From Granulicella sp. S190 (GTDB lineage: Bacteria > Acidobacteriota > Terriglobia > Terriglobales > Acidobacteriaceae), in NCBI RefSeq assembly GCF_009766095.1, contig NZ_LMUD01000002.1, positions 432,877-496,876 on the forward strand: DNA of 64,000 nucleotides. The letters run 5' to 3'. The translations under genes were made by a program, and so were the position numbers. The notes beneath the pieces were generated by a model. That model was not told where the DNA came from, made no database searches, and worked only from the letters and a program-made list of their open reading frames with translations. This document shows, in pieces, positions 25,829 to 52,236 of this stretch. Positions within the stretch are counted from its first letter, which is position 1. Every line of letters begins with the position of its first letter.

Positions 25829-25844
25829 TTGAGCCCGATTGTAA

Positions 25845-26429: not shown

Positions 26430-26517
26430 GATCGACCTCTTATCAGTCGCATCCTACTTTGTTCTAAGAGAACACTGCAACATGTAGACTGGTGATCTTT
26501 TGGAGAGGACGACCCTT

Positions 26518-30224: not shown

Positions 30225-30385
30225 GGGACACCTCTGCGTCATTTTGCGTATTGAATCATTGACCAGATTTGAAAATTAGATGTAGAGACATCAGAAATAG
30301 ACACCAACAAAATTACCTGTTGCACGCATTAAGACAAGCAGCCGCCGTAGATGCGCTCGTCTATCCACATCGCGAGACAAGACGG

Positions 30386-32182: not shown

Positions 32183-32208
32183 GAGCGTCCTCTTCTTTAC
32201 GACTGTTG

Positions 32209-35392: not shown

Positions 35393-35434
35393 AAAAGTCC
35401 TCCAACAACGGTAGCTCGTCAAAATCTATCTGAA

Positions 35435-35902: not shown

Positions 35903-38900
35903 ATGAAATTGATGATGCGTGCAACCGTCGGGATGGCATTTGCTGTATGTCTTCTGGCATCTTCGCCAATCGCCCATGCCCAGGCAGTCTACGGCTCCAT
36001 CTTTGGAACTGTCGTGGATACCACAGGCGCAGCTGTACCTGGTGCAACTGTCACCATCACCGATTCGGCGAAGGGAACGACGGTTACCGCGACGTCCAAC
36101 GGAAGCGGCGAATTCACGGTGGAACATCTCATTCCTGACCTTTACGATGTGGCTGTAGCTGCACAGGGTTTTAAGGGATTTCAGCAGAAGGGCATTCAGC
36201 TTTTTGCCGACACTTCGACCAAAGTAGTTGCCTCTATGACTGTTGGAGGCTCTGACCAGACAGTTGAAGTTGATGCCGACCAGGTGCCTCAGTTGAAGAC
36301 GGACCGTGCCGATGTGTCGACGATCTTCGGTGCGAAAGATATTGGGGACCTGCCGGTAGGTGGCCGTAACTTCACCAACCTCCAGTTGCTTCTGCCGGGT
36401 GCCCAGTTGCTTGGCTGGAGCCACGCTCCCGATGAAAACCCACAGGGGAGTGCCCAGATTCAAGTCGATGGACAGGCCTTCGGCGGCGTCGCTTTCATGC
36501 TGGACGGCACGGACAACCAGGATCCAATTCTTGGCATTATCGTTGTGAATCCGAACCTGGATTCGCTTTCGGAGACCAAGATCACGACGCAAAACTTCGA
36601 CGCAGAGTTCGGTAAGGCTGTGTCGTCAGTAGTGACTGCGCAAACAAAGTCCGGTTCGAACAAGTTCCATGGTTCGGCCTTTGACTATCGCACCAGCACC
36701 GCAAACCTAGCGCAAGATCCATACACGCAGTTCCCGGCTGAAGGAACAACTGCTGGAAGCGCTATTGCCCCGGGTCTGAAGAATCTATTTGGCGGTTCAA
36801 TTGGCGGACCTATCCTTAAGGACAGGGTCTTCTTCTTCGGCGACTACCAAGGCGCGCGACAGAGAGTTGGCACAACTTCTTCGACCATCGTTCCAACCTC
36901 TTTGGTCACTTCTTCCTGCTTGAGCGGAAATGGATGTAACTTCAGCGAGTTTATCAACCCCGGGCTAGGTCTGAACTATCCCGTCTATCACGTTGTCAAT
37001 GGCGCCACGGTGCAGTATCCGGGCAACGTCGTTCCTCAGGCGGATCTCTCCGCTCCGGCGCTGAATTACATCAAGGCAATCGCCCAGTACGCTCCTAACA
37101 AGATTGGGGCCAGCGGGCTGCTTGATACTTATGTTCAAGGCGGAACCGGCATCTTCAATAGCGATCAATGGGATGTTCGCTTAGATGGACAGGTTACACA
37201 GAAGGCACACGCGTTTGTTCGATTCAGCCGATTTACCGATACGTTAACTGGAACTCTACTGCTTGGCGCGGCCGGTGGTCCTGGATTTGGACTCGGTGGC
37301 TATGGCGGAAACTCCGCGGGTGCAAATGACAGCGTGGCATCCGGCATGGATATAGCTATTAACTCAACCTTGGTGACAGACTTCCGGCTGGGATACTACC
37401 GCTACAACATCAACGATCAGAAGTTCGATGCCGGAACTTCGGCGGCTACGTCTCTTGGCTTCGGTGGACTGAATACCGCGGATCCAATCACAAGTGGCCT
37501 GCCGGGTTTCCAAATCAATACGTTCACAGGCAGCACTCAGACTGAGTGGGGTGCCGGTCTTAACATCAATCGCTGCAACTGCCCTCTCATTGAGAAAGAG
37601 GATCAGTATCAGATTGTGAACAACTGGACTAAGACGATAAGGAATCACGCTGTAAAATTCGGTGTTGATCTGCGGTATGCGCGCAATCTTCGCGTGCCCA
37701 GCGACGTGGACAGGACTGGACTCTTCAACTTTAACGGAAATGCCACTGCGCCGTCTGATGGTTCTACTCCAGGTCTTGGCATTGCCTCGTTCGTGAAGGG
37801 CGATGTAAACACGTTCAATCGCTATGTCAGTACTTCGACGAATGCGAAAGAATTCCAGAAGCGCACCTTCTACTATGCTCAAGATACGTGGCGGGCGACT
37901 CCCAAACTTACGCTCAACCTTGGAGTGCGGTACGAACTGTACTTCCCTGAGGCAGTGAACGGCGTAGGCAACGGCGCGTTGCTGGATCTCACCTCTGGTT
38001 ATCTTCACGTGGCGGGAGTCGGCAGTGTCCCAACGAACATGGGCTGGGCCGCCGGAAAAAATACCTGGAATCCTCGAATCGGGATAGCGTACCAAGCAAC
38101 GGATAAGACTGTCGTTCGTGCCGGGTATGGTCGAAGCTTCGATCTCGGCGTATTTGGTTCAATCTTTGGGCACGTGGTTACGCAGAACCTTCCTGTTCTT
38201 GCTAATCAAGCGATCACCGCATCAGGTTCGAATGCTGCGAGCTATGCCAAACCTTTTGATCTTGCGACTGGCCCGGTGCCAAATCAGACGGTGACGGTGC
38301 CTTCTAATGGCCTGTTGCCGAATCCGGGTTCGTTGGTAAGCACAAAAGCTCGCCCCAACCCTCTTAAGCTTCCTACACTTGATGCGTGGAACATGAGCGT
38401 TCAGCAGTCTCTTTCACCTACTCTGTCAGTGACGATGGCTTACGTGGGCAATAAGGGAACTAACACTCTGAGCGCAGGCGACGGCAACAATACCAATCCG
38501 AATGAGCCGGGAATTTTCCTTCCTGCTGCGTATAGTGTTACTGGATTTCCGCTCCACTACGATCCTGCCGGTGGTAACTGCTGGCCGGCTGGAGCAAACT
38601 GCACTGCGGCGGGCGTGAATGGCAACGTTCTGATTCCTGCAAGCGGCGCAGTTTCGACACAGAAGTTCCTGGAACGCTACTACGGCGGAGCTCTCCCGGC
38701 TTGTCAAGATCCAAACTACTCACAGCCTACAGGCGAAGGGCTTGCTCCGGGCGCGTGCGGATGGAATCAGCCGATTGGATACTACGGAGATAATCAGAAT
38801 ACGCACTTCAATGCCTTACAGGTTACGGTAGCCAAGCAGATCTCTCATGGACTCTCCTTCACAGGAAATTACGCATGGCAGCGCGGGTTCAATTACAACA

Positions 38901-39622
38901 ATAGTTACGCCACATGGTTGAAGCAGGCTGCTTATGGCCGTGACGATTCGATTCGCGAACAACAATTCGTAATCTATGGACTCTATGAATTGCCAGTGGG
39001 CCGTAATAAACTTTTACTGCCCAATTCGTCGCGCCTCGTGGATGAAATCATTGGCGGCTGGCAGTTGAGCCCGGTGCTCAACATATCCAGCGGCTTGCCC
39101 TATAGTCTCTCAATGTCCAACTGCGCCTCCTCTGTAGGCGGAGCCGGTATCGGAGATAACAGCGGCCACCCAACAGCAGCCCCTTGTTATCCCAATGGAA
39201 ATCCGGGAAGCTTCCATCCTCAACAAGGCGCTTTCAATCCAGTGACTCACTCAAGGCCTTATTTCTCGGCTCTTCCAGCACTATGCCCGTCTACGGGTTC
39301 ATCGTCTTCCGGCTTCACGTGCCCAGGGCTCGATCAGATCGGAAATACCGGTCGTAACAGCAACTTCGGACCGCATTTCTTCAATACAGATTTGGCGATA
39401 CAGAAGACCTTCCCGATCAAGGAGAGCATCTCTGCGCTGTTCCGAATGGATGCTTTCAACGTCTTCAACTACATCAGTTCGGGCACTCCAAATGGCAACT
39501 CTAACAATCTCGCTATCGATAGCAATGCCGCGATCACGAATGGTATTGGAGGGAATGGTATAGGGCCGGTTGGAGCCTCCAGCCCTCGTCAGCTGTCGTT
39601 TACGGCGAGGATAACGTTCTAA
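35903..39622 (+). CDS. Oar-like TonB-dependent receptor (sugar locus)
   Basis: The 1239-residue outer-membrane protein starts at ATG with GGAGG 7 nt upstream and a signal peptide (ending IAHAQ). An N-terminal carboxypeptidase-regulatory-like domain (about 30-110; GTVVDTTGAAVPGATVTITD) precedes a plug-like region (about 115-250; GGRNFTNLQLLLPG, LDGTDNQDP) and a large barrel ending in the aromatic FTARITF. Unlike SusC proteins it has no SusD partner nearby. Such acidobacterial receptors are assumed to import oligosaccharides or peptides with TonB energy. Linkage to the GntR-LacI/GH13 genes suggests alpha-glucosides. Confidence 0.9.
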   Translation: MKLMMRATVGMAFAVCLLASSPIAHAQAVYGSIFGTVVDTTGAAVPGATVTITDSAKGTTVTATSNGSGEFTVEHLIPDLYDVAVAAQGFKGFQQKGIQLFADTSTKVVASMTVGGSDQTVEVDADQVPQLKTDRADVSTIFGAKDIGDLPVGGRNFTNLQLLLPGAQLLGWSHAPDENPQGSAQIQVDGQAFGGVAFMLDGTDNQDPILGIIVVNPNLDSLSETKITTQNFDAEFGKAVSSVVTAQTKSGSNKFHGSAFDYRTSTANLAQDPYTQFPAEGTTAGSAIAPGLKNLFGGSIGGPILKDRVFFFGDYQGARQRVGTTSSTIVPTSLVTSSCLSGNGCNFSEFINPGLGLNYPVYHVVNGATVQYPGNVVPQADLSAPALNYIKAIAQYAPNKIGASGLLDTYVQGGTGIFNSDQWDVRLDGQVTQKAHAFVRFSRFTDTLTGTLLLGAAGGPGFGLGGYGGNSAGANDSVASGMDIAINSTLVTDFRLGYYRYNINDQKFDAGTSAATSLGFGGLNTADPITSGLPGFQINTFTGSTQTEWGAGLNINRCNCPLIEKEDQYQIVNNWTKTIRNHAVKFGVDLRYARNLRVPSDVDRTGLFNFNGNATAPSDGSTPGLGIASFVKGDVNTFNRYVSTSTNAKEFQKRTFYYAQDTWRATPKLTLNLGVRYELYFPEAVNGVGNGALLDLTSGYLHVAGVGSVPTNMGWAAGKNTWNPRIGIAYQATDKTVVRAGYGRSFDLGVFGSIFGHVVTQNLPVLANQAITASGSNAASYAKPFDLATGPVPNQTVTVPSNGLLPNPGSLVSTKARPNPLKLPTLDAWNMSVQQSLSPTLSVTMAYVGNKGTNTLSAGDGNNTNPNEPGIFLPAAYSVTGFPLHYDPAGGNCWPAGANCTAAGVNGNVLIPASGAVSTQKFLERYYGGALPACQDPNYSQPTGEGLAPGACGWNQPIGYYGDNQNTHFNALQVTVAKQISHGLSFTGNYAWQRGFNYNNSYATWLKQAAYGRDDSIREQQFVIYGLYELPVGRNKLLLPNSSRLVDEIIGGWQLSPVLNISSGLPYSLSMSNCASSVGGAGIGDNSGHPTAAPCYPNGNPGSFHPQQGAFNPVTHSRPYFSALPALCPSTGSSSSGFTCPGLDQIGNTGRNSNFGPHFFNTDLAIQKTFPIKESISALFRMDAFNVFNYISSGTPNGNSNNLAIDSNAAITNGIGGNGIGPVGASSPRQLSFTARITF

Positions 39623-39639
39623 AAAGAAGTCTCTTTCAG

Positions 39640-39667
39640 AGAGAGGAGCTGCGGCTCCTCTCTTTTT
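39640..39667 (+). terminator. Strong rho-independent terminator after the Oar-like receptor
   Basis: A perfect 10-bp stem (AGAGAGGAGC / GCTCCTCTCT) with a TGCG loop is followed by a run of five T, 18 bp after the receptor stop. It separates the sugar locus from locus B. Confidence 0.92.
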
Positions 39668-39696: not shown

Positions 39697-40800
39697 ATGC
39701 GCAGTCTGTTCAAAATAGTCGTCCTTGGCTGTCTTCCCCTTTCTGTCGCTCTCTTCCGGCCACTTGCACTCGCACAAACTCAGACGCAAAGTACTCCATC
39801 GGGTCAATCTTCAAGCGAGTCGGTCTCTTCTCCTGACCCAGCCTCTGTCGACTCGTCGCCGACCCTGACGCAGCTTCGGGCTATGGTCGATCGCGGACAT
39901 GCTACGGACGCTCTGAAACAGCTCGACGTGCTGGCGAAACAGCAGCCTGTGGCTGCGGGTGTCAATCGGGTGCGCGGTCTTGCGCTTTATTCAGAAGGCG
40001 ATTTTACGGATGCGAATATTGCATTCGAGAGCGCGTTGAAGCAAGACCCTCACGATGAAGAGTCGGCGCAGTTGAGGGGGCTTACGCTGTTTCGTTTAGG
40101 CCGCCCCGCAGATGCTATTCCTCTCCTTGAATCCGCCTCCAGTTGGACCTCGCAGACGAAGATCGATCCTAATTATGTGCTTGCTCTTTGCTATCTCGAC
40201 ACGAACCGGTACGACAATGCGCGTCAGGCGTTCGCGACGCAGTACGGCTTCGCTCCTGATTCGGCGCCGGCTTATCTTCTGACAGCACGTATGCTCCTCC
40301 GTCGGGATTATCTGCCGGTGGCACAGCAGTTCGCCGCAAAGGCCCTCGAGCTGGACCCGCAGCTACCTCTTGCACATGCTTTGCTTGGTGAGGTTGCTCT
40401 TGCCGGCGAGCATCTGGATTCGGCAATTGCAGAGTTTGAGAAGGAGCGACTTCGCAACCCGCTTGATGGCAGCATCTATGACAGGTTGGGAGACGCTTAC
40501 AGCCGCGCGGGAGACTATACGAAGGCACAGCAATCCCTTCAGCGTGCGTTGCTTCTGGAGCCGAACTCGACCGGCCCTTATATTCTGTTAGGCAAGGTTT
40601 TGATAAAGCGGCAAGATCCTGCAAGCGCGTTGATGTACTTGGAACGGGCCGAAAAGATGGACTCAAATAATTACATCACTCATAGTCTGTTGGGGCAGGC
40701 TTACCGTTCTCTGGGCAGGGTGGATGAAGCTAGCCGGGAGACTGAGATCTCACACAAGATACAAGCTGCGAGCGAACCCAAACTCGAAACGCTTCATTAA
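39697..40800 (+). CDS. Secreted TPR-repeat protein (locus B, first gene)
   Basis: The ATG at 39697 gives 367 residues with a signal peptide (ending LALAQ); a TTG nine codons upstream is possible. A Ser/Gln-rich linker precedes about eight TPR units (about 60-350; for example YDRLGDAYSRAGDYTKAQQSLQ). It has no catalytic motif and probably acts as a periplasmic scaffold. It lies 15 bp before the multiheme cytochrome gene, so co-transcription is likely. The terminator just upstream means its own promoter must lie in the short 39668-39696 stretch or upstream readthrough must occur. Confidence 0.85.
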   Translation: MRSLFKIVVLGCLPLSVALFRPLALAQTQTQSTPSGQSSSESVSSPDPASVDSSPTLTQLRAMVDRGHATDALKQLDVLAKQQPVAAGVNRVRGLALYSEGDFTDANIAFESALKQDPHDEESAQLRGLTLFRLGRPADAIPLLESASSWTSQTKIDPNYVLALCYLDTNRYDNARQAFATQYGFAPDSAPAYLLTARMLLRRDYLPVAQQFAAKALELDPQLPLAHALLGEVALAGEHLDSAIAEFEKERLRNPLDGSIYDRLGDAYSRAGDYTKAQQSLQRALLLEPNSTGPYILLGKVLIKRQDPASALMYLERAEKMDSNNYITHSLLGQAYRSLGRVDEASRETEISHKIQAASEPKLETLH

Positions 40801-40815
40801 GGACAAAGGTGATAC

Positions 40816-42630
40816 GTGTCAGGGAAGAGGCCAATGCGAACTCCATGGCGGCACGGGCCTCCCTGCCTCGATAGAGCTCAATCCTTGCAGGCACGAGTAG
40901 CCTTCGGTAGCTTTCGATGGAGTCCAGGCCGTTCGTTCACCGTATTATCGGTCGCAGCGGCGCTGCTTTTTGGTAACCTGCTACATTCTGAGGTCAACGC
41001 ATCTCATGCTTCTCCTTTGCAGGCTGATGTCTCCGCGCCCTTGCGAAATCCTGACACAGCCTGTGCAGGCTGCCATAAAGAGATCTACGATAAATATGAG
41101 AAGACACCGATGGCGCGGGCCAGCGGGACAGCCATGGAAGGGTTCCTGCAAGGTGGTTTTCTGCATAGCGCCTCCGGCATCCGCTATGAGGTGTTCTCGC
41201 GAGATGGGGAGGTCTGGATGTCGTATGACCGGGATGATGCGCCCGAGAGATCGAACGATCAGACCGTGCTTGACGGGGAGAAAGAGCTTCTCTACTTTAT
41301 CGGCTCCGGGCATCGTGGCCGCACTTATCTTTATCAAGAGGGAGGAGAGTGGTTTGAGACTCCCATCAACTTTTACGGTAAGCGACAGTTGTGGGACATG
41401 GCTCCAAACTACGGCCTAACCAAGACCATGCCTGTTGCTCTGCCTATCGATTCCAACTGCCTGCACTGTCATGCGTCAGCTGTGCAAACAGCTCTTCCAG
41501 AGGCGCGCAATCGATATGATGGCCCTCCGTTTCGGCAAGGCGGCATCGGATGCTCCGCCTGTCATGGCGATGCCTCGAAGCATCTTGAAGAGCAGGGACA
41601 TGGCCCCATTGTGAACCCCGCGAAGCTGACCCCAGTTCGGAGAGACAGCACTTGTCTGCAATGCCACCTCGAAGGCAATGTTGCGGTATATCGCGCGGGT
41701 AAATCGCTCGCTGAATTTCGCGTGGGGGATGATCTCGCGGACTATGTGGTTTACTCCGTAAAAGCGAGCGCGAAGACGGGTGGCGGCCGCGCCAGCAGTC
41801 AGTACGAAGCGCTCCTGCGCAGCGCGTGCAAGGCTGCCAGCGGAGACAAGCTTACGTGCACGACCTGTCATGACCCGCATAGTTCTCCGAGCGCGGAAGA
41901 GCGCGTCAACTATTACCGTAGCCGGTGTCTGGTTTGTCATACCGGCTCCAGAATAGCCACGGAGCACCATCCTGAACAGAAAGACTGCGCCGTCTGTCAT
42001 ATGCCAACCCGGGTTGCCGTAGACATCTCCCATGAGCAAGAGACGGATCACGATATTCAGCGTCGACCTCACCCAGATGTGTCCATTGCGCGATTCCTGG
42101 ATACCGCAGAGGCCGATGATCTGCTGCCGGTTGGAAAGGTGGCCGCCAGCGATAGAGAGATGGGATTGGCGTACGCGCAGCTCGCAGAAGGTGGAAACCA
42201 GAGAGACGCCGAGAAGGCTTTACGCCTTCTACTGAAAGCAGAAAAAAGCGGAGCGAGTGACGCCGAGCTTCATACGAAGCTTGGATTTATCGAACAGATG
42301 GCCGGCGACAAGAGCGACGCTCGCAAAGAGTACGGGGAATCCCTGATGCAGGATCCCTATGACGCTACTGCATTGGGAAATCTGGCTGTTTTGGATGCCG
42401 TCTCCGGCCACACCGCCGATGCGGTCAGTCTCTTGCAGAGAGCGGTCGATGCTGATCCCAGTCAGATAACAGCTGGCTTGAATCTCGCGTTCATTGAGTG
42501 CAGAGTCGGGAATAAAGAGAAGGCACGGCAAATACTAATGAGCGCGGCTCGATTTGACCCGGATGATCCAAATCTTCGCAAGTTTCTCTCTTCTGGGACC
42601 TATGCCGGAGAACGATGTAACCTCCGCTGA
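40816..42630 (+). CDS. Seven-heme cytochrome c fused to TPR repeats
   Basis: The GTG at 40816 has AAGG 6 nt upstream (604 residues). A transmembrane or signal-anchor helix lies at about 40-56. Seven CxxCH heme sites follow at about residues 83, 215, 246, 280, 348, 371 and 391 (CAGCH, CLHCH, CSACH, CLQCH, CTTCH, CLVCH, CAVCH). The TPR-containing tail spans about 430-600. This is the layout of NrfB/NapC-like or cytochrome c554-like multiheme electron carriers with an interaction module. It is probably anchored in the inner membrane facing the periplasm, feeding or draining electrons for the monooxygenase-like partner encoded two genes downstream. Confidence 0.9.
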   Translation: MSGKRPMRTPWRHGPPCLDRAQSLQARVAFGSFRWSPGRSFTVLSVAAALLFGNLLHSEVNASHASPLQADVSAPLRNPDTACAGCHKEIYDKYEKTPMARASGTAMEGFLQGGFLHSASGIRYEVFSRDGEVWMSYDRDDAPERSNDQTVLDGEKELLYFIGSGHRGRTYLYQEGGEWFETPINFYGKRQLWDMAPNYGLTKTMPVALPIDSNCLHCHASAVQTALPEARNRYDGPPFRQGGIGCSACHGDASKHLEEQGHGPIVNPAKLTPVRRDSTCLQCHLEGNVAVYRAGKSLAEFRVGDDLADYVVYSVKASAKTGGGRASSQYEALLRSACKAASGDKLTCTTCHDPHSSPSAEERVNYYRSRCLVCHTGSRIATEHHPEQKDCAVCHMPTRVAVDISHEQETDHDIQRRPHPDVSIARFLDTAEADDLLPVGKVAASDREMGLAYAQLAEGGNQRDAEKALRLLLKAEKSGASDAELHTKLGFIEQMAGDKSDARKEYGESLMQDPYDATALGNLAVLDAVSGHTADAVSLLQRAVDADPSQITAGLNLAFIECRVGNKEKARQILMSAARFDPDDPNLRKFLSSGTYAGERCNLR

Positions 42631-42696
42631 GAAGCCGAGACTCTCGACCTAAAGTGCTTGCCTGGACTGGACGAAATGCTGTTTACTCGGAGAACG

Positions 42697-43296
42697 ATGC
42701 GACGCCTTCTATCCCTGCTCTTTACTTTTGTGACCGTGCTTCTCTTGGCAGAAGTTTGTCCGGCGCAGGGAGAGCGAGCGGTATACGGATACAACCTCAA
42801 CGGCGAACCTGTGACAAGTCTCGCTTCATCAGGAGTCGCAGCTGTTGTTCTTTTTTTTGCGGCGACAGATTGTCCCCTCTCTAACCGCTACCTTCCAGAG
42901 ATAAGGCGTATCGAACAAAAGTTTTATTCCAGGCACATAGTGGTCTGGATTGTTTATCCGAACTTTGGAGAGACCTCCGTCGGAGTGAAGCAGCATGAAG
43001 CTGCCTACGGAGTTGAAGACCACGTCCTGCTCGATCCGAATCATCAGCTCGTTGCTCTCGCTCACGCCAAGGTGACGCCTGAGTCCGCAGTTCTTATTCC
43101 CGAAACTGCTGACGCCAAAATGTTTCGCACCGTTTATCACGGTCGAGTGGATGATCGCTACCTTCGGCTTGGACTGGAGAAGCCCATAGCTGCACAACAT
43201 GATCTGGAGCGTGCGATCGAAGCAGCCCTTCAAAAGCGTGCAGTAGAACAGCCTGGCGGCCCGGCAGTGGGATGCGGAATCATAGGCCGCCCATGA
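42697..43296 (+). CDS. Secreted one-cysteine redoxin (thioredoxin-fold) protein
   Basis: The ATG at 42697 has GGAG 4 nt upstream and starts a signal peptide (ending VCPAQ), giving 199 residues. The thioredoxin-like core shows VVLFFAATDCPLSNRYLPEI, where the usual CxxC is CPLS with only the first Cys, as in AhpC/TSA-like redoxins. A strand-loop VYPNFGET and the cis-Pro-type VTPESAVLI follow. It should be a periplasmic redox or metal-handling protein; a SCO-like copper role is an alternative. It shares an ATGA overlap with the next gene, so the two are translationally coupled. Confidence 0.85.
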   Translation: MRRLLSLLFTFVTVLLLAEVCPAQGERAVYGYNLNGEPVTSLASSGVAAVVLFFAATDCPLSNRYLPEIRRIEQKFYSRHIVVWIVYPNFGETSVGVKQHEAAYGVEDHVLLDPNHQLVALAHAKVTPESAVLIPETADAKMFRTVYHGRVDDRYLRLGLEKPIAAQHDLERAIEAALQKRAVEQPGGPAVGCGIIGRP

Positions 43297-45506
43297 ACCG
43301 TTTCAGGAAGGCGCATCTTTTCGTAGCGCTGCTCAATATAGGGGCTGCGCTGGCGCTTTCCATCAGCCTGCCTCGCATGCGGGTTCAAGCCGCTGCCGCC
43401 CCGATCACGTTTAGCCGACAGGTAGCGCCCATCCTTTATAAGCAGTGCAGCGGCTGTCATCATCCTGGTGGCTCTGGGCCATTCAGTCTGCTCTCTTACG
43501 CTGACGCCAAGCGATGGGGAAAGCAGATTCAGACTGTTACTCAAAGCCGTTACATGCCGCCGTGGCTGCCTGAACCGGGGTTTGGCAACTTTGCCGACAG
43601 TCGCCGGCTCTCTTCAGAAGATCTTGAACTCCTAAAACTATGGGTGGAAGGTGGGATGCCTGAGGGAGATCCCGGAGAGGCGCCCAAAGCACCCATCTTC
43701 TCAGGGGAGTGGCAGCTTGGACCTCCCGATCTGATCTTGAAGGTGACCTCTCCCATGCAGGTTCCTGCATCGGGGCCTGATCTCTTTCGCAACTTCATCT
43801 TGCCGGTGCCAATCGCAGAGACGAAGTACGTTCGTGCCATGGAAATCAGGCCGGGAGCTGCACAGGTCGTGCATCACGCCAACATGTTGATCGATCGTAC
43901 GGCCTCGTTTCGTCGTCAACATCCAGACGATTGGAAGGAAGGAATCCCCGGTATGGAGCTTGCTGTCGATTCCGGTGACTCCTTCGATCCGGATAGTCAT
44001 TTTCTTTTCTGGAAGCCTGACTCTCCTGCTCTGGTTGAACCGAACGGCATGCCTTGGCGAGTCGATCCGGGCAACGATCTCATTTTGAATATGCACTTGA
44101 AGCCCACGGGCAAGGTAGAGACAATACAAGCGACAGTAGGTCTCTATTTCTCTGATAAACCTGCAACGGCCCACCCCATGCTCCTGCAACTAGAGCATGA
44201 CAGGGCGATCAATATACCTGCTGGAGACGCCGCGTTCGTCATTGAAGATCAGTTGAAGCTCCCTCTGGATGTCGACGTCCTTGGCGTGTATCCGCATGCC
44301 CACTATCTAGGGAAGAGATTCGAAGGCTACGCTACGCTTCCAAATGGAGAGAAGAAGTGGCTTGTCCTTATTCGTGACTGGGATATCGATCGCCAATCTG
44401 TCTATCGATTTCAATCGCCTGTATTTCTTCCGAAAAACTCTGTCTTACATATGCGTTACACCTACGACAACTCAAGCGGAAATGTTCGCAATCCCAACAG
44501 CCCACCCATCCCGGTTAAGGCAGGCAACAGGTCTGTCGATGAGATGGGCCATCTTTGGATTCAGGTTCTACCTCGTCCTCTTCCGAAAGCAGGCGGAGAT
44601 CCTCGCATGCTCCTTGAGCGGGCCTGGATGCAGAACAATCTTCGGAAAGACCCAGACGATCACGTTGCGCTTTATAACCTGGCTTCGATGGAGATGGCCT
44701 CTGGCGACTATGAGTCGGCAGCGACTCTGTACCGTCATATCCTTACGCGTACCCCGGAGGATGTCCGCGCTTTGATCGCTCTGGGAGCCGCGCTTGAAAA
44801 GACGCGGGATTGGCAACAGGCGCAAGAGAAGTACGAAAAAGCGTTGGCTGTAGATCCTCAAAACGTCGATGGTCTCTTCGATCTTGCACATCTTGAGTCC
44901 GAACATGGTAGTTACGCGGAAGCTGAACGGAACTATCGCCGTCTACTGGCTGTGAATCCGAAGGATGCGTCTGCTCACAATGAGTTCGGAAAAGTCCTCC
45001 TCGCAACCAACCGGGATGCAGAGGCAACGCAGGAGTTCGAGGCTGCGATTGCGATTGCGCCGGAAGACTTAGACGCACTTTACAATCTTGCCGGCATAGA
45101 AGCAGACAAAGGTGAGTTGCCTAGAGCAGCGAATCTATTAGAGCAAGCGCTGAAGTTGCGGGATGATGCAGATGCCCGCCAGTTGCTGGGGAGCGTTTAT
45201 GCGCAATCGGGGAAGCTGGCAGACGCTCTGGACCAGTTCAAAGCGGTCCAGACATTCCGTCCTCATGAGGCCGTGCCGCATCGGCAACTTGCCCAAATCT
45301 ATGCGCAGATGGGGCAGTTGCGCGATGCGATCAATGAACAAAATATTGCAATCAGCCTGGAACCTAAAAATGCGGACGACTGGAATAATCTAGGCGTGCT
45401 GCACGCCCGCAATGGTGACGCAGTGATGGCTCGCAAAGACTTCGACCGCGCTCTGACGTTGGATCCTCAGCATGTAGCCGCACGGGCAAATCGCGCGCGT
45501 CTCTAA
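43293..45506 (+). CDS. Cytochrome c / PHM-like copper monooxygenase / TPR fusion
   Basis: The start in the ATGA overlap (43293) gives 737 residues with a signal peptide. Domain order: a heme c domain (CSGCH at 52-56, distal Met candidate in SRYMPPW); a type II ascorbate-dependent copper monooxygenase-like two-domain body (about 140-430); then about seven TPRs (445-735). The body keeps candidates for all six copper ligands of PHM: HH 194-195, His268 in NMHLKP, HAH 335/337 and Met418 in DEMGH. It likely activates O2 in the periplasm, taking electrons through its own heme. The substrate is unknown. Confidence 0.88.
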   Translation: MNRFRKAHLFVALLNIGAALALSISLPRMRVQAAAAPITFSRQVAPILYKQCSGCHHPGGSGPFSLLSYADAKRWGKQIQTVTQSRYMPPWLPEPGFGNFADSRRLSSEDLELLKLWVEGGMPEGDPGEAPKAPIFSGEWQLGPPDLILKVTSPMQVPASGPDLFRNFILPVPIAETKYVRAMEIRPGAAQVVHHANMLIDRTASFRRQHPDDWKEGIPGMELAVDSGDSFDPDSHFLFWKPDSPALVEPNGMPWRVDPGNDLILNMHLKPTGKVETIQATVGLYFSDKPATAHPMLLQLEHDRAINIPAGDAAFVIEDQLKLPLDVDVLGVYPHAHYLGKRFEGYATLPNGEKKWLVLIRDWDIDRQSVYRFQSPVFLPKNSVLHMRYTYDNSSGNVRNPNSPPIPVKAGNRSVDEMGHLWIQVLPRPLPKAGGDPRMLLERAWMQNNLRKDPDDHVALYNLASMEMASGDYESAATLYRHILTRTPEDVRALIALGAALEKTRDWQQAQEKYEKALAVDPQNVDGLFDLAHLESEHGSYAEAERNYRRLLAVNPKDASAHNEFGKVLLATNRDAEATQEFEAAIAIAPEDLDALYNLAGIEADKGELPRAANLLEQALKLRDDADARQLLGSVYAQSGKLADALDQFKAVQTFRPHEAVPHRQLAQIYAQMGQLRDAINEQNIAISLEPKNADDWNNLGVLHARNGDAVMARKDFDRALTLDPQHVAARANRARL

Positions 45507-45601
45507 TCTGCTGTTACGATTCGCCTAACAACGATGCTGGATTTGCTTTGCGTGGAAGACAGAAGAACGCCAAGGAGATACGATCAGATCGTTACACTCT
45601 C

Positions 45602-47380
45602 ATGAACAGATCTTCGCAAAACGGGATGGTTGGCGGGAGAGCGATATTGATTGTCTGGATGGGTCTCTCGAGCCTCACGGCCGCACAGGAGCCTTCGACA
45701 GCTTTGAGAAAAGCAGATGCTGCGTATCGTGCAGGCCAGGCCGCGTTGGCGCGAAAAGATTTGACGGAAGCACAAGCTGATTTTGAACAGGTTACTCGGC
45801 TGGCTCCACAGGCTGAGCAAGGACATAGCGCCCTCGGCGCCGTTCTTGTAAATAACGGGCACATGCACGAAGGTATCCGTGAGCTTGAGAAGGCGCTCGC
45901 GATAAAAGCGACCGATAGCACGGCACAGATGAATCTCGCGATGGCATACCAGCAAACGGGCGCATCAGAAAAGGCAATCCCGCTATTCGCTAAACTCGAA
46001 GCAGAGGCGCGCTCGCAAAAGCATGTTCTCCCCTCGTATGTCTTGGCGGGATACGCCCGCTCTCTCGCAGCAAATCAAAAGATTGAGTTAGCTATCGCGA
46101 AGATGAAAGCGGCGCTTGCAAACGACTCTCAAAACGCGGAACTCCATGATGAGCTTGGATCATTGTATGCACAACAAAAAGAATGGTCGCGAGCACAAGA
46201 GGAGTTCGCTACGGCGATTAGCCTGAACCCGAATATGGCAACCGCTCATCTACATCTGGGTTTGGTCGTTCGAGGACAAGGGGGCGAGAACTGGATGTCT
46301 GAGTTAGAGCGCGCGTCAGAACTCGCGCCTGAGGATGCGCAAGTTGCGATGGAACTGGGCAACGCGCTGGCAGCAGAGGGCAAAGACGATCAGGCAATTG
46401 CCGTCTTTCGACATGTGTTGGAGAAGAATCTAAACTCCATCGCGGTGTCCTACCAGCTTGCTCTTGCTTTGCAACGGTCTAACAACGTGCAGGAAGCGAT
46501 TGCTCTTCTTGAAAAAGTGATAGCTGCCGAGCCGAAGAATGCTGAAGCTCTCACAAATCTCGGGATGGCTCTATGCCAGGCGCAACAGGCCAAGGCTGCG
46601 GTTCCAATTCTGCAGCGCGCCACGTCGCTTGAGCCGGAAAGTGTCACCGCTCATCAGAATCTTGCCGCTGCTTATGTGCAGTTGAGCCAGTTCAGTGATG
46701 CCGCGACAGAACTCCATCAGGCGCTCAAGCTCTCTCCAGATGCGCCTCAATTGCACTATAACCTCGGCCTTGCTCTTAAGATGCAGGATGACGCTGCCGG
46801 AGCTATTCCAGAGTTGGAGACAGCTCAAAGACTTGATCCTTCCGCAGCCGAAGCTCCATATCTTCTCGGCATCTTGTACATGCAAAACGGGCGGTATGAG
46901 GAGGCAGCGCGTGAGATGAATCTCTCGTTGAAGATTCATCCTGAAAATGGAGAGGGGTGGGCGACGTTGGGAAGCATCTATGACAAGTTGAACAAGCTCC
47001 CCGAAGCTACCACTGCGCTACGCGAGGCTATCAGGCAACTTCCCGGTCAGCCTGATCCACATCTGACGCTAGCGGCCGTGCTGGTTAAGCAAAACCAATC
47101 CGGAGAAGCAGGGACAGAGCGCAAAAATGCTGCCGAACTCATGCGAAAGAACATGAACCGGCAGCGTGCCGAGGTCGCTACAAACTCCGGGAACTCCGCG
47201 TTGCATAACGGGGATGTAGAAGGAGCCGTCGCGCAGTTTCATGATGCATTGAGCTACGACGCAAGCTACTCGAAGGCCCATCTTGGGCTTGCAGATGCGC
47301 TTGACAGACAAGGTAAAACTACGGATGCTGCCGTGGAGCGACAAAAAGCCGAAGCCGCAAAGATAGCGGATGCCCCTTAG
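45602..47380 (+). CDS. Secreted TPR-repeat protein (locus B), paralog of the locus A TPR protein
   Basis: The ATG at 45602 gives 592 residues with a signal peptide (ending SLTAAQ); frames further upstream lack it. About 14 TPR repeats fill the mature chain (HLHLGLVVRGQGGENWMSEL, HYNLGLALKMQDDAAGAIPEL). It matches the 24017-25828 product in length, start, repeat order and last repeat, and is likewise followed by a Tat-exported CRTAC1 gene (179 bp downstream). It probably scaffolds or receives that partner in the periplasm. Confidence 0.9.
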   Translation: MNRSSQNGMVGGRAILIVWMGLSSLTAAQEPSTALRKADAAYRAGQAALARKDLTEAQADFEQVTRLAPQAEQGHSALGAVLVNNGHMHEGIRELEKALAIKATDSTAQMNLAMAYQQTGASEKAIPLFAKLEAEARSQKHVLPSYVLAGYARSLAANQKIELAIAKMKAALANDSQNAELHDELGSLYAQQKEWSRAQEEFATAISLNPNMATAHLHLGLVVRGQGGENWMSELERASELAPEDAQVAMELGNALAAEGKDDQAIAVFRHVLEKNLNSIAVSYQLALALQRSNNVQEAIALLEKVIAAEPKNAEALTNLGMALCQAQQAKAAVPILQRATSLEPESVTAHQNLAAAYVQLSQFSDAATELHQALKLSPDAPQLHYNLGLALKMQDDAAGAIPELETAQRLDPSAAEAPYLLGILYMQNGRYEEAAREMNLSLKIHPENGEGWATLGSIYDKLNKLPEATTALREAIRQLPGQPDPHLTLAAVLVKQNQSGEAGTERKNAAELMRKNMNRQRAEVATNSGNSALHNGDVEGAVAQFHDALSYDASYSKAHLGLADALDRQGKTTDAAVERQKAEAAKIADAP

Positions 47381-47559
47381 CCTAGTTGTGAGCGTTCCGG
47401 ACTTAATCCGTTCAAGCGACAGCCAGTGTACAGTCCATTCTGGTGTTCGCTATAATTCGGCGCACTGAGAAAGACGCGACTTGTGGAGCCGTGCTTTCCC
47501 TCTAATCATCCATACAACTATCAAACTGCTACACGCTATCTGGGCTGGATGAGGCAACC

Positions 47560-49455
47560 TTGAAAAGAATATCCGCTGACTTAGATCGTCGCAAATTCAT
47601 TCAATCGCTTAGTCGAACTGCCCTGGTGCTGCCTTTTGCGGACGTTCTAGCGCTGGCCTCACCATCGCAACAGCAGACCGCTCCATCGCCAAAAGGTATT
47701 GGCCCGCAGGAACGCAGCTACGATGCAAAACCTGCTGCTCCGCCTCCCGGGGAGAAGTCACCGATCGAAGATACTCCGCTCGGCGTAAGCTTCCACGACG
47801 TTGCAAAGGAAGCGGGTCTAAACACTAAGACCTTCTACGGCGCTGAGGGCGCGAATAAATATCTGCTGGAAACTACGGGCTGTGGACTGGCCTTCTATGA
47901 CTACGACAACGATGGCTGGCTCGACCTCTTCCTGGTCAACGGATGGCGGCTGGACGGCTTTCCCAAAGGACAAGAGCCGCGTTGTCATCTCTTCAAGAAC
48001 AATCGCGACGGAACTTTCACCGACGTAACCAATGGCTCTGGTCTTGAACACAAGACAGGTTGGGGACAGGCCTGCTGTGTAGGCGACTATAACAACGATG
48101 GAAATGACGATCTGTTCGTAACCTACTACGGACAGAACGCACTCTACCGCAATAACGGGAACGGGACTTTTACTGATGTAACGCAGCAGGCAGGTCTTGT
48201 TCAGCCAGGGCCAAAGATCCGCTGGAATACTGGATGCACATTCGTCGACTACAACCGCGACGGACATCTCGACCTCTTCGTCGCTAACTACGTTGACTTT
48301 GATTTGAAGACCGCACCTTTGCCCGAAGACGGACCATGCACTTACAAAGGGATGCTTGTGGCGTGCGGGCCACCAGGTCTGCCGGGCGGTAGAAATATTC
48401 TCTATCAAAATAATGGCGATGGAACTTTCACCGATGTGAGTGAGAAGTCGGGCATGTGGACGGCGGTAGGAACCTACGGACTCAGTGTCGCTGCTTCGGA
48501 TCTGGACAATGACGGTTGGCCCGACATCTACGTTGCCAACGACTCTGCACCCGCCACGCTCTATCTCAACCAGAAAGATGGCACCTTTCGCGATGTGGCG
48601 ATCGAGGCTGGCGCGGCCTTATCGGCAGAAGCAAAGCCCCAGGCAGGCATGGGAGTATCGATCGGGGACTATAACCATAGCGGCTATCTCGACATTGTGA
48701 AGACCAACTTCGCAGGCGATACCGACTCTCTCTACACCAACATGGGAGATGCGACGTTTGAAGATCATACGTATCCTAGTGGACTGGGCGAGAACACTCG
48801 CCTGCTTGGATGGGGCGTAGGTTTCTTTGATATGGACAATGATGGATGGCTGGACATTCTCATGTCGAACGGTCATGTCTATCCTGAAGTCGACAAATCC
48901 AAAGCTGACCTTAAGTACGCGCAGCATAAATATCTCTATCGCAACCTTCACAACGGGCGCTTTCAGGACGTCACTAACAAAGGTGGCCCGGGAATACTGG
49001 AAGATGTACCTGCTCGCGGCTGTGCCTTTGGCGACTATGACAACGACGGAGATCTAGATATCGTCGTCAATTGCATCAATGCCACGCCACAGCTCCTGCG
49101 CTGCGACACAACGCTGAATAGGAGTTGGATCAAGATAAAACTTGTTGGGGTAAAGTCGAACCGTTCCGGGATAGGTAGCCGGGTCATTGTGACTGCTACG
49201 ACCACGCTGGACTCTTCGAAACCCTCAAGACAGATTGATGAGCTGCGTAGCGGAGGAAGTTATTTTTCTCAGAATGATATGCGCATGCACTTCGGGTTGG
49301 ATCAGGCAAAGAAGGTAGACCTGCTAGAGATTCGATGGCTAAGTGGACAAGTAGACCGGCTGAAAGATCTCGAAGTCAACCAGCTATATGTCATTCAAGA
49401 GGGTGGAAAGATCTTGAAGAGTGGTCTGCTGAAGCCAGCAAAGAAACTTAGCTAG
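47560..49455 (+). CDS. CRTAC1-family FG-GAP/UnbV protein, Tat-exported (locus B)
   Basis: This 631-residue protein starts at TTG with GAGG 5 nt upstream. The twin-arginine motif is DRRKFIQS, followed by a hydrophobic segment ending LALASP, like the 21958-23847 product. FG-GAP repeats carry DYDNDGWLDLFLVNG, DYNNDGNDDLFVTY and DLDNDGWPDIYVAND. The Cys pair is in CTYKGMLVACGPPGLP, and UnbV has RMHFGLDQA and IRWLSGQ. Tat export suggests that it folds, or gains a cofactor such as a metal, before secretion. It ends locus B. Confidence 0.92.
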   Translation: MKRISADLDRRKFIQSLSRTALVLPFADVLALASPSQQQTAPSPKGIGPQERSYDAKPAAPPPGEKSPIEDTPLGVSFHDVAKEAGLNTKTFYGAEGANKYLLETTGCGLAFYDYDNDGWLDLFLVNGWRLDGFPKGQEPRCHLFKNNRDGTFTDVTNGSGLEHKTGWGQACCVGDYNNDGNDDLFVTYYGQNALYRNNGNGTFTDVTQQAGLVQPGPKIRWNTGCTFVDYNRDGHLDLFVANYVDFDLKTAPLPEDGPCTYKGMLVACGPPGLPGGRNILYQNNGDGTFTDVSEKSGMWTAVGTYGLSVAASDLDNDGWPDIYVANDSAPATLYLNQKDGTFRDVAIEAGAALSAEAKPQAGMGVSIGDYNHSGYLDIVKTNFAGDTDSLYTNMGDATFEDHTYPSGLGENTRLLGWGVGFFDMDNDGWLDILMSNGHVYPEVDKSKADLKYAQHKYLYRNLHNGRFQDVTNKGGPGILEDVPARGCAFGDYDNDGDLDIVVNCINATPQLLRCDTTLNRSWIKIKLVGVKSNRSGIGSRVIVTATTTLDSSKPSRQIDELRSGGSYFSQNDMRMHFGLDQAKKVDLLEIRWLSGQVDRLKDLEVNQLYVIQEGGKILKSGLLKPAKKLS

Positions 49456-49530: not shown

Positions 49531-52236
49531 TCATCGGGCTGATCTTGCAAGGACGGTAACCGCCGGTGTATTCCATCCCTCGATCTTCACCTTCCATCCT
49601 GCAGCACTCTTCGCCTCCGAACCTTCAAGAGAGTCCGCTGGTATCGAAGCCGTCAGTTCGCGCTCTTCACCGGGCATCAGTTCTATGTAGTTATCGGACC
49701 AGGTAACTCGCGAAACCTTCGCTCCGTGATTATCCTCAACCTGAGCCTCGACCTGAAAAGCAAGTCCCTTCGATGAATTCGAAAGATGCAGATGAACCAA
49801 ATTCCCTTCTATCTGAGCGGTCGCGGTTAGAGGTGCAGCACGAAGAGTGGAGAGAGCCGTCATGTCTTCGTACGTCTTGGCCGGCGTGTGGGTGTAGTCG
49901 GTCTTAGCCCAGTCGAACTCAGTCAGCTTTCCGGGAACCCAGTAGAAGTTCCTGCTGACGATCGCACCCTTCGCATCTTTTAACTCAAGCTGAACGAAGT
50001 AGACGCCGGAGGCTGGCTGAAATATCTCTTGCGGGATATCCATTGCTTTGACTGTGCCGTCAGAACCAACATCGACAGCACGCGACTGAGCGAAGATCTC
50101 TTTCAAGTCGAGGTTGTAGACATGCGCAACGGCGGTAAGTCCTGGCGACGGGGTGTAGACGCTATTGACGACGTATACGCTGTGGTCGTCGTAGGAGTAC
50201 TGCACATGCAGCAGCTCGCATGCCTTCTTCGTTCCATAGTAGCCGCCACCCGCATCCAGATAGTAGTCGTACAGATGCCAGATGGTCGAAGGCCACGCAT
50301 TATTCAGCATCCACTGAATCACGCCCGTCGAACTATATTTGTTGCGGCCATAGGCTTCGAACATCGCTCGTTCTCCATCGAAGGCCATGGACTGCGCGAT
50401 CTGGTTGTACTTCTCGCCTGTCTTCGTTTCGCCATAGGTTGCAGTCATGGCATCGTTGAAGACGTGAAGATTCTGAAATCCCTCACCTCCAGCGTGATAT
50501 CCCCACACCGCATCCTGTGGCCACTGGTGATCGGCTGGGAGCATCTTTCGTAGACTTTGCGGCGAAGGAATCGCCGGCCCGGGGCTCGTCTCGGTGTTGA
50601 ACCCGTATGCTCCGCCATGATGCGAATCGACAAGCCAATACGATGGCGCGACAAAATCGTAGGGGCCTGACATCTTCACCCCGCTCGGACCGCTCACGCT
50701 CGTAGCCGTTGCCGTTGCCGAAGAGAGAATCGCGTTTGGCCAAAAGGTCTGAGCGAGCACCTTGAGATAAGCAGTCTCCACATTGGCGGGAGGCGGGTTG
50801 TCACTGCCGTTCAGCCACGCAATCATGCTCGGATGGCTGCGGATCCTCAACATCTGAGACTGCAGGGAAGCAGTAGCAACATTCAGCGTATCCGGCGTCC
50901 ACTTATCCCAGTGCTCCCAATGATCGCAGCAGCACCACCCCGCCATCACCATCATCCCTTGCTCATCGGCGAGACGAAAGAACTCGTCCGTCTCCATCTT
51001 GCCCTCAAGCCTGATGGTGTTCAGATGCATGTCATGCACCATGCGAAACTCTTCCGCCAGCCGCTCCGGCTGTTGGCGTAGTAGCATATCCTGCGACCAC
51101 CCTGCGCCGCGTATCAGAATAGGGCGCTGGTTGACGTGAAAGAGACGGTACCCTTTGTCTGTCAAATCCGAGGTGACCTCACGTATTCCAAACCGGGTGC
51201 TCTGCTCATCGGAGACAACTCCGTCCAGAACGAATCGCAGCGTGAGTGTCTCCAGCGGATGCGCGCCCAGATCAGCAGGCCACCAGACTCGAGGGTTCCC
51301 GATACGAAGTTGTGAAAAGTTCTCCGGCGCAAAGGTGACCGTTTTCGTCTCACCCGCATCCAGAGACACAGCCTGTGAGATGGCGATACCCGCAACCGTT
51401 CCCTCGAGGCGCCCCTTCGCCGGATGATCCATCGTATTTCGAAGCTCGGTGCGAACGGTGATCTCCGCAGTCTTCAGGGACACATCGGTGAAATGGGTCG
51501 TTGCCATGGGAGATCGCACGACAACCGGGCCGCTCGTTATCAGCGAGACAGGTCCCCAGAGGCCCATGTCTTTATCCGGTGGACACGGATTCCAGTCAAC
51601 CCAGTTAATTCCCAGATCGGTCGGAGTCGGAGCAAACGTCTCGACGGCAAGTACGTTTTCGTGGCCCGGCTTCAGTGCCTTTGTAACGTCGAACTCATAG
51701 GTGCGGTAAGCGCCCTGCACCTGACTCGAATCTGCGATCTTCAGCCCATTGAGCCAGATGTCGGCTCGGTAGTTGATGCCGCCGAATCGCATCCAGAAAG
51801 TCTTTCCTCGCTCTGAGAGAGAGACATTAAATGTCTTCCGGTACCACCAGCCGCAGCGATAAGGACTATCGGCGGCCATCTCTATGTTGGAAAAGTTGTC
51901 TCCCGCAGGATAAGTAGTTCCTGGAACAGAACGAAGGTTCGTGCCGACAAAGATGTCCTTGAACTCACCTGCTGCGACTTGTACCGCAAGCACCGTTGCT
52001 GGAATGGTTGCGCTGTACCAACCCTCTGTCTGTACGTTGGGCGAAGAGAGTTTTGCTCCGTCGCCATGAATCTTGCAATCCGACTGAACGGACCACCCCG
52101 TCTTCAACAGCACAGGAGAAGATGTTGAATCAGCTGCGGCAAGCAGCGGCGTCTGCAAATTCATGAGCCACAAAAACACCATCAGAAAATTACCGCGGAT
52201 GGCTAGGCATGTCGTTGATCTCTTCTGCAGCATCAT
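49531..52236 (-). CDS. Secreted GH2 exo-beta-D-glucosaminidase-like enzyme
   Basis: The 901-residue protein has a signal peptide (ending LLAAAD). A jelly-roll sugar-binding domain (about 45-235), an Ig-like domain (about 245-350), a TIM barrel (about 355-700) and C-terminal beta domains (about 700-900) follow. The acid/base site reads NGSDN (Asp479) rather than the usual NE of beta-galactosidases and beta-mannosidases, and the nucleophile is Glu549 in NTETSPG. The Asp acid/base matches the exo-chitosanase (CsxA) subfamily of GH2, so it likely releases glucosamine from chitosan-type ends. GH20 and LacI genes nearby support amino-sugar use. Confidence 0.85.
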   Translation of the reverse strand: MMLQKRSTTCLAIRGNFLMVFLWLMNLQTPLLAAADSTSSPVLLKTGWSVQSDCKIHGDGAKLSSPNVQTEGWYSATIPATVLAVQVAAGEFKDIFVGTNLRSVPGTTYPAGDNFSNIEMAADSPYRCGWWYRKTFNVSLSERGKTFWMRFGGINYRADIWLNGLKIADSSQVQGAYRTYEFDVTKALKPGHENVLAVETFAPTPTDLGINWVDWNPCPPDKDMGLWGPVSLITSGPVVVRSPMATTHFTDVSLKTAEITVRTELRNTMDHPAKGRLEGTVAGIAISQAVSLDAGETKTVTFAPENFSQLRIGNPRVWWPADLGAHPLETLTLRFVLDGVVSDEQSTRFGIREVTSDLTDKGYRLFHVNQRPILIRGAGWSQDMLLRQQPERLAEEFRMVHDMHLNTIRLEGKMETDEFFRLADEQGMMVMAGWCCCDHWEHWDKWTPDTLNVATASLQSQMLRIRSHPSMIAWLNGSDNPPPANVETAYLKVLAQTFWPNAILSSATATATSVSGPSGVKMSGPYDFVAPSYWLVDSHHGGAYGFNTETSPGPAIPSPQSLRKMLPADHQWPQDAVWGYHAGGEGFQNLHVFNDAMTATYGETKTGEKYNQIAQSMAFDGERAMFEAYGRNKYSSTGVIQWMLNNAWPSTIWHLYDYYLDAGGGYYGTKKACELLHVQYSYDDHSVYVVNSVYTPSPGLTAVAHVYNLDLKEIFAQSRAVDVGSDGTVKAMDIPQEIFQPASGVYFVQLELKDAKGAIVSRNFYWVPGKLTEFDWAKTDYTHTPAKTYEDMTALSTLRAAPLTATAQIEGNLVHLHLSNSSKGLAFQVEAQVEDNHGAKVSRVTWSDNYIELMPGEERELTASIPADSLEGSEAKSAAGWKVKIEGWNTPAVTVLARSAR

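Follow-up and report, generated by a model that had tools for sequence, protein, structure and literature searches.

A PHM/DBH-type protein with a c-type heme domain, its redoxin partner and a recurrent receptor-TPR-CRTAC1 gene set in Granulicella sp. S190

PHM and DBH, the type II copper monooxygenases, are known chiefly from animals, where ascorbate supplies their electrons, and in fungi the heme domain of cellobiose dehydrogenase feeds the copper enzyme lytic polysaccharide monooxygenase in the oxidation of carbohydrates. The locus described here, six consecutive plus-strand genes (g1 to g6; positions 39697-49455) preceded by a receptor gene, lies in a window of 64,000 nucleotides from Granulicella sp. 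S190 (contig NZ_LMUD01000002.1; host genome size 5.05 Mb), and its central gene, g4, encodes a protein in which a c-type heme domain, a PHM/DBH-type double domain and a TPR superhelix are joined. The g4 protein resembles PHM and DBH in its double jelly-roll fold (Z 18.7-20.8) and in all six copper-ligand positions, but differs from them in its own c-type heme, its TPR arm, its redoxin partner and its bacterial periplasmic setting, while the peptide-binding residues are not kept. With the fungal pair it would share the principle of a heme feeding a copper site, whereas the fold and copper site are unrelated and no flavin domain is seen in the g4 set.

Among described gene sets, the Sus-type polysaccharide utilisation loci of Bacteroidota share with this locus a TonB-dependent receptor, an alpha-helical repeat partner, glycoside hydrolases and dedicated regulators. 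In the window the receptor likewise stands with glycoside hydrolases, but no SusD partner occurs among the Pfam matches listed for 27 window genes, TPR and CRTAC1 proteins being found instead. As no SusD-family protein is among those matches, the receptor, g1, g5 and g6, hereafter the core, may be said to work like a Sus system rather than to be one. In Verrucomicrobia and Planctomycetota, the PSCyt gene sets carry cytochrome domains beside sulfatases and carbohydrate-binding modules and would act on imported sugars, if on any (PMC5615132); PSCyt and PSD are other domain families, and the accessible text of that study describes neither a PHM domain nor a TPR there. The same study, on freshwater Verrucomicrobia, proposes that other periplasmic and cytoplasmic cytochromes act, perhaps, on imported sugars (PMC5615132). 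In the hydrazine-synthase-like clusters of Planctomycetota, according to the accessible text of their description, CRTAC1 genes of the FG-GAP kind lie between hydrazine-synthase-like genes and beside probable heme-protein genes, so that the present gene set is not alone in placing CRTAC1 beside heme proteins, but the cytochromes are different and the word monooxygenase is absent from the main text (PMC12758564). Among the matches listed from the open-licence literature on bacterial PHM-like enzymes, on CRTAC1 with Acidobacteria or TonB and on PHM with Planctomycetes, the accessible text describes neither the g4 protein nor the gene set.

The genes of the locus, all on the plus strand, are the following.

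35903..39622, plus strand: TonB-dependent (Oar-like) outer-membrane receptor (OMP_b-brl_4, 573.5 bits; CarboxypepD_reg, 60.7 bits)
39697..40800, plus strand: g1, TPR protein, exported as judged by eye and used as the core marker (TPR families, Pfam)
40816..42630, plus strand: g2, heptaheme c-type cytochrome (c7/c554-like) with C-terminal TPR (seven CXXCH; Pfam)
42658..43296, plus strand: g3, redoxin of thioredoxin fold, whose two conserved cysteines lie in DCPLSNRY and in the C-terminal GCGI (alignment of 17 homologs)
43293..45506, plus strand: g4, c-type heme domain, PHM/DBH-type dicopper double domain and TPR superhelix (models and fold match)
45548..47380, plus strand: g5, TPR protein (alternative ATG 45602; TPR families, Pfam)
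47560..49455, plus strand: g6, CRTAC1 family calcium beta-propeller with Tat-type leader (FG-GAP_3, 183.6 bits; UnbV_ASPIC, 69.8 bits)

A sequence-only reading of this stretch had proposed the six consecutive plus-strand genes, and open reading frame calls in the window agree. Its labels of g1 and g5 as TPR proteins and of g2 as a seven-heme cytochrome with TPR are matched by Pfam and by the seven CXXCH motifs of g2, whose Cytochrome_C7 score (35.1 bits; cut-off 24.8) places it with the recognised multiheme proteins of the c7/c554 kind. The proposed heme/copper-monooxygenase/TPR fusion is likewise found in g4 (one CXXCH, a PHM-type double domain and TPR), and the Tat-exported CRTAC1 protein in g6, where FG-GAP and UnbV/ASPIC are both above cut-off, six Dx[DN]xDG calcium motifs are present and a twin-arginine leader (DRRKFIQSL) was identified by eye. 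The predicted export of the proteins and the putative membrane placement of the multiheme cytochrome were likewise assigned by eye. The ATGA overlap of two genes lies between g3 and g4, at 43293-43296. The g4 ATG is at 43293, while its reading frame is open from an ATG at 43272, from which the residue numbers below are counted.

In the interpretation that we tentatively favour, the six genes and the receptor form two layers, a common uptake core and an inserted oxidative cassette (g2-g3-g4), with g4 oxygenating a substrate that the core imports. The comparative counts given below support the module as a conserved set.

The fold of g4 was examined on AlphaFold2 models of the full-length protein (pLDDT 92.3) and of its head alone (pLDDT 90.7), the latter modelled separately since the fold search with the full-length protein was swamped by TPR chains. 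The head matches PHM (1sdw) with a Z of 20.8 (root-mean-square deviation 3.4; 264 aligned residues; 17% identity), DBH (4zel) with 18.7 and two further PHM entries with 17.5-18.1, while the top match outside PHM and DBH reaches only 8.3. Furthermore, rows 1-31 of the Foldseek search with the head are all PHM or DBH. The modelled head thus has the double jelly-roll fold of the PHM/DBH superfamily, and at the level of predicted structure g4 is a member of the dicopper monooxygenases of this type. Its features are located as follows.

43446..43460, plus strand: heme motif C59-x-x-C62-H63 (invariant in the 54 rows of alignment A2)
43872..43877, plus strand: H201-H202, first two CuH ligands by homology (invariant in A2; 84/84 TPR-type homologs)
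44094..44096, plus strand: H275, third CuH ligand by homology (invariant in A2)
44295..44303, plus strand: H342-x-H344, CuM histidines by homology (invariant in A2)
44544..44546, plus strand: M425, the methionine of the DEM motif and by homology a CuM ligand (invariant in both A2 and A3)
44595..45503, plus strand: TPR superhelix, residues 442-744 (Foldseek/VIA matches to consensus TPR and OGT TPR domains)

All nine residues (C59, C62, H63, H201, H202, H275, H342, H344 and M425) are invariant across the 54 relatives, and the heme motif and six copper-ligand positions are present in 84/84 TPR-type and 34/37 other, shorter homologs, counted without removal of duplicates. The g4 protein is predicted to be loaded with copper and heme. 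One of the three exceptions has a gap at the methionine. The other two, PHM-like proteins in loci L059 (9178-10560) and L060 (664-2031), keep the heme motif, while four of their six copper-ligand positions are lost; they may be non-copper relatives with another role. At the level of sequence, two results go against the copper-monooxygenase assignment, namely a Pfam Cu2_monoox_C (PF03712) score for the g4 head of 14.9 bits, against a cut-off of 23, and the wider profile A3, which at E <= 10 retrieved neither PHM nor DBH. A search of PDB with the single g4 sequence gave just a weak cytochrome match and no copper-domain match, while profile A1 reached DBH at 4.1e-5. The assignment was settled by the fold search.

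PHM being the closest fold, g4 might be thought to act as the animal enzyme does, through alpha-hydroxylation of peptides with a C-terminal glycine, here imported by the receptor; we consider this highly improbable. Animal PHM holds the peptide carboxylate with Arg240 (two residues before HxH), Asn316 and Tyr318. These are not kept in g4, which has Tyr340, His427 and Trp429 at the corresponding positions, placed via the HxH and DEM motifs, and position 340 is Tyr in 39/54 and Arg in 0/54 of the relatives. Peptide amidation by g4 thus appears unlikely, since the residues that hold the peptide in PHM are replaced. The lyase of the animal amidating system is of the NHL-repeat kind; no lyase partner is found beside g4, and the sole NHL-repeat protein among the 27 window genes lies 32 kb off and carries many Ig-like domains.

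The g3 product, which the sequence-only reading had taken for a one-cysteine redoxin, has three cysteines in its open reading frame, one of them in the leader, and the two others are conserved: DCPx(S/A)xRY is kept in 17/17 and the C-terminal GCxI in 16/17 homologs from family g4 loci, so that the one-cysteine description no longer holds. These two cysteines probably form a resolving pair. The Pfam match to AhpC-TSA is weak (24.3 bits; cut-off 26). By sequence, the best PDB match is the probable Thermus thiol-disulfide isomerase/thioredoxin 2cvb (E 1e-4), followed by ResA (5e-4), and the alignment with 2cvb runs through the shared C-terminal GC motif. Unlike these proteins, g3 has its first cysteine in CPx(S/A) rather than CxxC, and its partner is g4.

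Relatives of g4 are widespread in little-studied bacteria. The g4 head is present in 47/150 genomes of the same family, where most matches belong either to a group with TPR (about 50-76% identity) or to a shorter one (about 30%), and a few are intermediate. Genomes with a TPR-type g4 number 22, as counted from hand-picked long matches of high identity, two of them fragmentary (G005 and G026), and the closest relatives come from records labelled Acidobacteriaceae, Terracidiphilus and Granulicella. The host genome has a single g4 match, that in the window; in the same genus, locus L284 carries receptor, redoxin and g4 on the same strand, and the 13 other genomes listed give no g4 match at E <= 1e-60. 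The redoxin-g4 pair, at the least, is also present in Granulicella aggregans M8UP14 (L141). At the same threshold, 64/297 genomes match across the phylum. A scan of one genome per species (84,980 species) gave at least 553 relatives, of which the best 80 were kept, in records labelled Acidobacteria, Verrucomicrobia, Planctomycetota, Latescibacterota and others. Three assemblies labelled Rhodanobacteraceae, Akkermansia muciniphila and Bifidobacterium breve (L140, L166 and L186) contain g4 relatives at 60, 46 and 42% identity, respectively, and are probably mislabelled or misbinned.

Neighbours were counted around 16 TPR-type and 15 non-TPR family loci with enough flank, out of 40 fetched, and around the 80 wider loci, of which 39 plus 11 (50) have enough flank. 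The hidden Markov models for g1, g2, g3, g5, CRTAC1 and the receptor had as training set loci from the family and from the host genome, partly the same as those counted, while the 80 wider loci lie outside the training set; the open reading frame caller used for neighbour loci was crude, and the Fisher tests take no account of relatedness. The redoxin adjoins g4 in 15/16 family TPR-type loci and in 0/15 loci of the shorter paralogs (Fisher 6e-8). Within 10 kb, CRTAC1 is found in 9/16 g4 loci versus 1/15 paralog loci (Fisher 0.006), and a separate TPR protein in 10/16 versus 3/15. Many of the 80 wider loci are short; among them the redoxin was found in 41 (two of them fused to g4), CRTAC1 in 22 (in 4/80 loci as a fusion to TPR), a multiheme cytochrome in ten and the receptor in 17 with a floor of 150 bits or 23 without it. 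Redoxin-g4 fusions occur in L160, L183 and L295, the last very probably the same contig as L183. In 20 loci from the phylum, the redoxin was found in ten, the receptor in eight, CRTAC1 in four and a multiheme cytochrome in one; L286/L170, L289/L162, L290/L171 and L295/L183 are probably the same contigs, so that these loci do not amount to an independent replicate. One contig probably also underlies both L138 and L047. Pfam scans of neighbour proteins took in 90/162, 87/95 and 110/146 candidate proteins in the three sets, with the 25 commonest families shown; farther g4 neighbours in the wider loci include sulfatases (5/110 proteins). The shorter PHM paralogs sit in another context for the same enzyme fold. 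Their neighbours in L062-L077 include phenylalanyl-tRNA synthetase beta and a reaction-centre-type cytochrome c, each in 3/87 scanned proteins.

The genes around g4 recur in another combination. Homologs of g1 at E <= 1e-40 are present in 67/150 family genomes, and within 10 kb of g1 in 40 core loci a receptor was found in 37, CRTAC1 in 29, a g5-type TPR protein in 23 and a heptaheme cytochrome in four. The unit therefore does not start at 39697, as had been supposed, and the receptor belongs to it. No g4 was found within 10 kb of g1 in these 40 loci (0/40), which were mostly the best g1 matches not already fetched with g4 and were thus chosen away from known g4 loci, in favour of loci without it; one of them, L261 (G135), comes from a genome whose g1 and g4 are about 11 kb apart, and ends before this g4. 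The counts by genome stand apart from this choice of loci: the g1 marker is present in 21/22 genomes with g4 and in 46/128 others (Fisher 8e-8), and in 20/21 versus 32/72 when only genomes of at least 4 Mb are taken (Fisher 3e-5), while 46 of the 67 core genomes are without a TPR-group g4. Elsewhere in the host genome, at positions 6067-12000 of L113 (contig C6), a second g1-type TPR protein (52%) stands beside a 763-aa protein that combines a pentaheme cytochrome of the c554 type with TPR, and beside a CRTAC1 protein that shares 66% with one from locus A of the window (13997-26429).

These counts bear on the proposal of the sequence-only reading that the CRTAC1 protein is either modified or matured by the monooxygenase or presents the substrate to it. 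The neighbourhood check that it called for, on co-occurrence of the heme/copper/TPR fusion with CRTAC1, turned out in its favour, as the association is kept beyond the host genome (the 9/16 versus 1/15 family loci and 22/80 wider loci given above). CRTAC1 does not, however, behave as a dedicated client of g4, since the 29/40 core loci with CRTAC1 near g1 have no g4 within 10 kb, 7/16 family g4 loci lack CRTAC1 within 10 kb and the host genome has 13 UnbV/ASPIC matches but one g4. We regard a client or presenting role of CRTAC1 as very improbable.

The heptaheme cytochrome, scored as a g2 match of at least 364 bits, is present in 16/22 genomes with g4 and in 13/128 without it (Fisher 2e-9), and among g1-bearing genomes in 15/21 with g4 versus 12/46 without (p 0.001). 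The link of the heptaheme to g4 is thus stronger than the core alone would account for. In L050, L051, L056, L151, L152, L158, L161, L211 and L284, the receptor, the redoxin and g4 form same-strand arrays, in some cases together with the heptaheme, and the exact order receptor-g1-g2-g3-g4-g5-g6 was not met again among the other annotated loci. The electron route from multiheme to heme to copper that had been proposed from the sequence alone is supported in part by these genome counts and is plausible, while the direction of electron flow is our inference.

A different explanation, which we hold to be possible but doubtful, is that the redoxin and g4 make up a periplasmic monooxygenase that stands by itself and acts on some housekeeping or niche substrate to which the receptor/TPR/CRTAC1 core has no relation, the pair having been inserted opportunistically into the core in this genome. 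The pair occurs with no core genes found nearby in L039, L043, L053 and L054 of the 16 family loci, with the receptor only in L046, and with no core genes found nearby in many loci labelled non-acidobacterial; L039 holds the closest g4 homolog (66% identity), with only the redoxin of the set alongside. The ties of g4 genomes to the core (21/22 versus 46/128) and to the heptaheme argue against a free-standing pair, as does the recurrence of same-strand arrays with the receptor.

Under the two-layer interpretation, the acidobacterial core would consist of the TonB-dependent receptor, the two periplasmic TPR proteins (g1 and g5) and CRTAC1 (g6), and would most likely bind, import and pass on oligosaccharides or glycoconjugates. 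The cassette g2-g3-g4 would be set into this core in the present genome. The heptaheme cytochrome g2 is the likely electron donor of g4, and it, or another periplasmic donor, would give electrons to the N-terminal c-type heme, from which they would pass to the PHM-type two-copper site, where CuH would donate an electron and CuM would activate O2 for the hydroxylation of a C-H bond. Most likely g4 oxygenates something that the core imports, perhaps a glycan, and the substrate may accordingly be pictured as a small molecule or glycan carried into the periplasm by the core. The TPR arm of g4 may dock the enzyme onto the core TPR proteins or CRTAC1, while g3 may keep the heme/copper protein or its thiols working, or clear peroxide arising from uncoupled turnover. 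That a cytochrome-wired PHM-fold oxygenase, bolted by TPR to a TPR/CRTAC1 uptake complex, oxidises periplasmic glycans or aglycones after TonB-dependent import throughout Acidobacteriota, Verrucomicrobiota and Planctomycetota is a bolder extension that we consider unlikely.

Several observations weigh against the two-layer interpretation. Within 10 kb, neither the receptor (9/16 g4 loci versus 3/15 paralog loci; Fisher 0.066) nor the multiheme cytochrome (5/16 versus 1/15; Fisher 0.17) is significant alone, and in 15/50 wider loci with enough flank no redoxin, receptor, CRTAC1, multiheme or separate TPR protein is found near g4. The shorter paralogs are also weakly tied to the core (21/34 versus 46/116; p 0.03), with a p of 0.38 in genomes of at least 4 Mb. 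Glycoside hydrolases were detected in 28/40 core loci, only 6/19 g4 loci and 0/15 paralog loci, the queries being taken partly from the window and from five core loci, without which the core count is 23/35. The glycan link is thus strong for the core and, as just 6/19 g4 loci have a detected glycoside hydrolase, weak for the cassette. Two transcription signals also speak against one transcript.

39638..39665, plus strand: terminator-like hairpin between receptor and g1 (12-pair stem and T tail)
47427..47456, plus strand: promoter-like site TGTACA-18-TATAAT upstream of g6 (10/12 consensus bases)

The 50-nt stretch with the hairpin has a folding energy of -22.3 kcal/mol (z -3.5; 0/200 shuffles as stable), while the promoter site is weak, the scan overall being at background (10 sites versus a shuffle mean of 8.8). 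A single six-gene transcript is doubtful on this strong hairpin after the receptor and the promoter-like site before g6.

The setting of the locus in the window is rich in enzymes of glycan metabolism. The frame of the sequence-only reading was too narrow in this respect, and the upstream receptor, the surrounding glycoside hydrolases and the sugar-type regulators belong to the picture. The flanking genes, identified with Pfam, are listed below.

26500..34041: MGH1-like glycoside hydrolase (plus strand), aldo/keto reductase (minus strand) and two GH13 amylase-family enzymes (minus strand)
34187..35422, minus strand: regulator with GntR DNA-binding (66.1 bits) and LacI-type sugar-binding domain (Peripla_BP_3, 108.7 bits)
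49531..52236, minus strand: GH2 exo-beta-D-glucosaminidase-like enzyme
52491-53570, minus strand: LacI-type regulator, after the GH2 enzyme

The regulator at 34187..35422 points away from the receptor (35903-39622), and a homolog (61%) adjoins a receptor in L245. The Pfam scan covered 27 window genes, with the 25 best rows taken for three TPR proteins, and in the whole window GH130, MGH1-like, two GH13, GH2 and GH20 enzymes were found, together with the GntR- and LacI-type regulators. According to the accessible text of one study, the calcium-blade motif of FG-GAP propellers is shared by a fungal lectin and a rhamnogalacturonan lyase (PMC3123361). The joint presence of a TonB-dependent receptor, a multiheme cytochrome and copper-site proteins would also fit copper or iron acquisition, with the receptor importing a metallophore and g2-g4 serving in metal release or storage. 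The neighbours, however, are glycoside hydrolases and GntR/LacI-type regulators, and no metal-uptake family is found among the Pfam matches listed for the 27 window genes; metal acquisition is, as such, improbable.

Further genes in the window include locus A (13997-26429; minus strand), which encodes a sensor kinase and response regulator together with one TPR and three CRTAC1 proteins. As homologs of its TPR and CRTAC1 proteins adjoin g1 in many core loci, this locus and the one described here look like parts of one larger region. Both g5 and the locus A TPR protein matched MamA in NCBIfam (242.7 and 229.5 bits; cut-off 200), but this label was rejected since the same scan matches many unrelated TPR models and the proteins are long repeats; it was taken as generic TPR similarity, not a sign of magnetosomes. 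At 55101-60771 (plus strand), the gene of a second Oar-like receptor precedes that of a GH20 hexosaminidase, and the NHL-repeat protein (4939-11607) has 2222 residues with fifteen Big_3_5 Ig-like domain matches (Pfam).

A large bacterial branch in which the heme donor is fused to the enzyme itself would represent a further means of driving this copper chemistry. The partners of g4 vary by locus while the redoxin mostly stays, which leads to testable predictions on electron supply and substrate. To our knowledge, few sugar importers have been worked out in Acidobacteriota. The receptor-TPR-CRTAC1 core, with its marker in 67/150 family genomes, is a candidate uptake system and gives bacterial CRTAC1 proteins a context. 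If g4 does oxidise glycans, it would parallel in bacteria the heme-to-copper relay seen with the polysaccharide monooxygenases, built on a fold used for hormone and neurotransmitter synthesis in animals.

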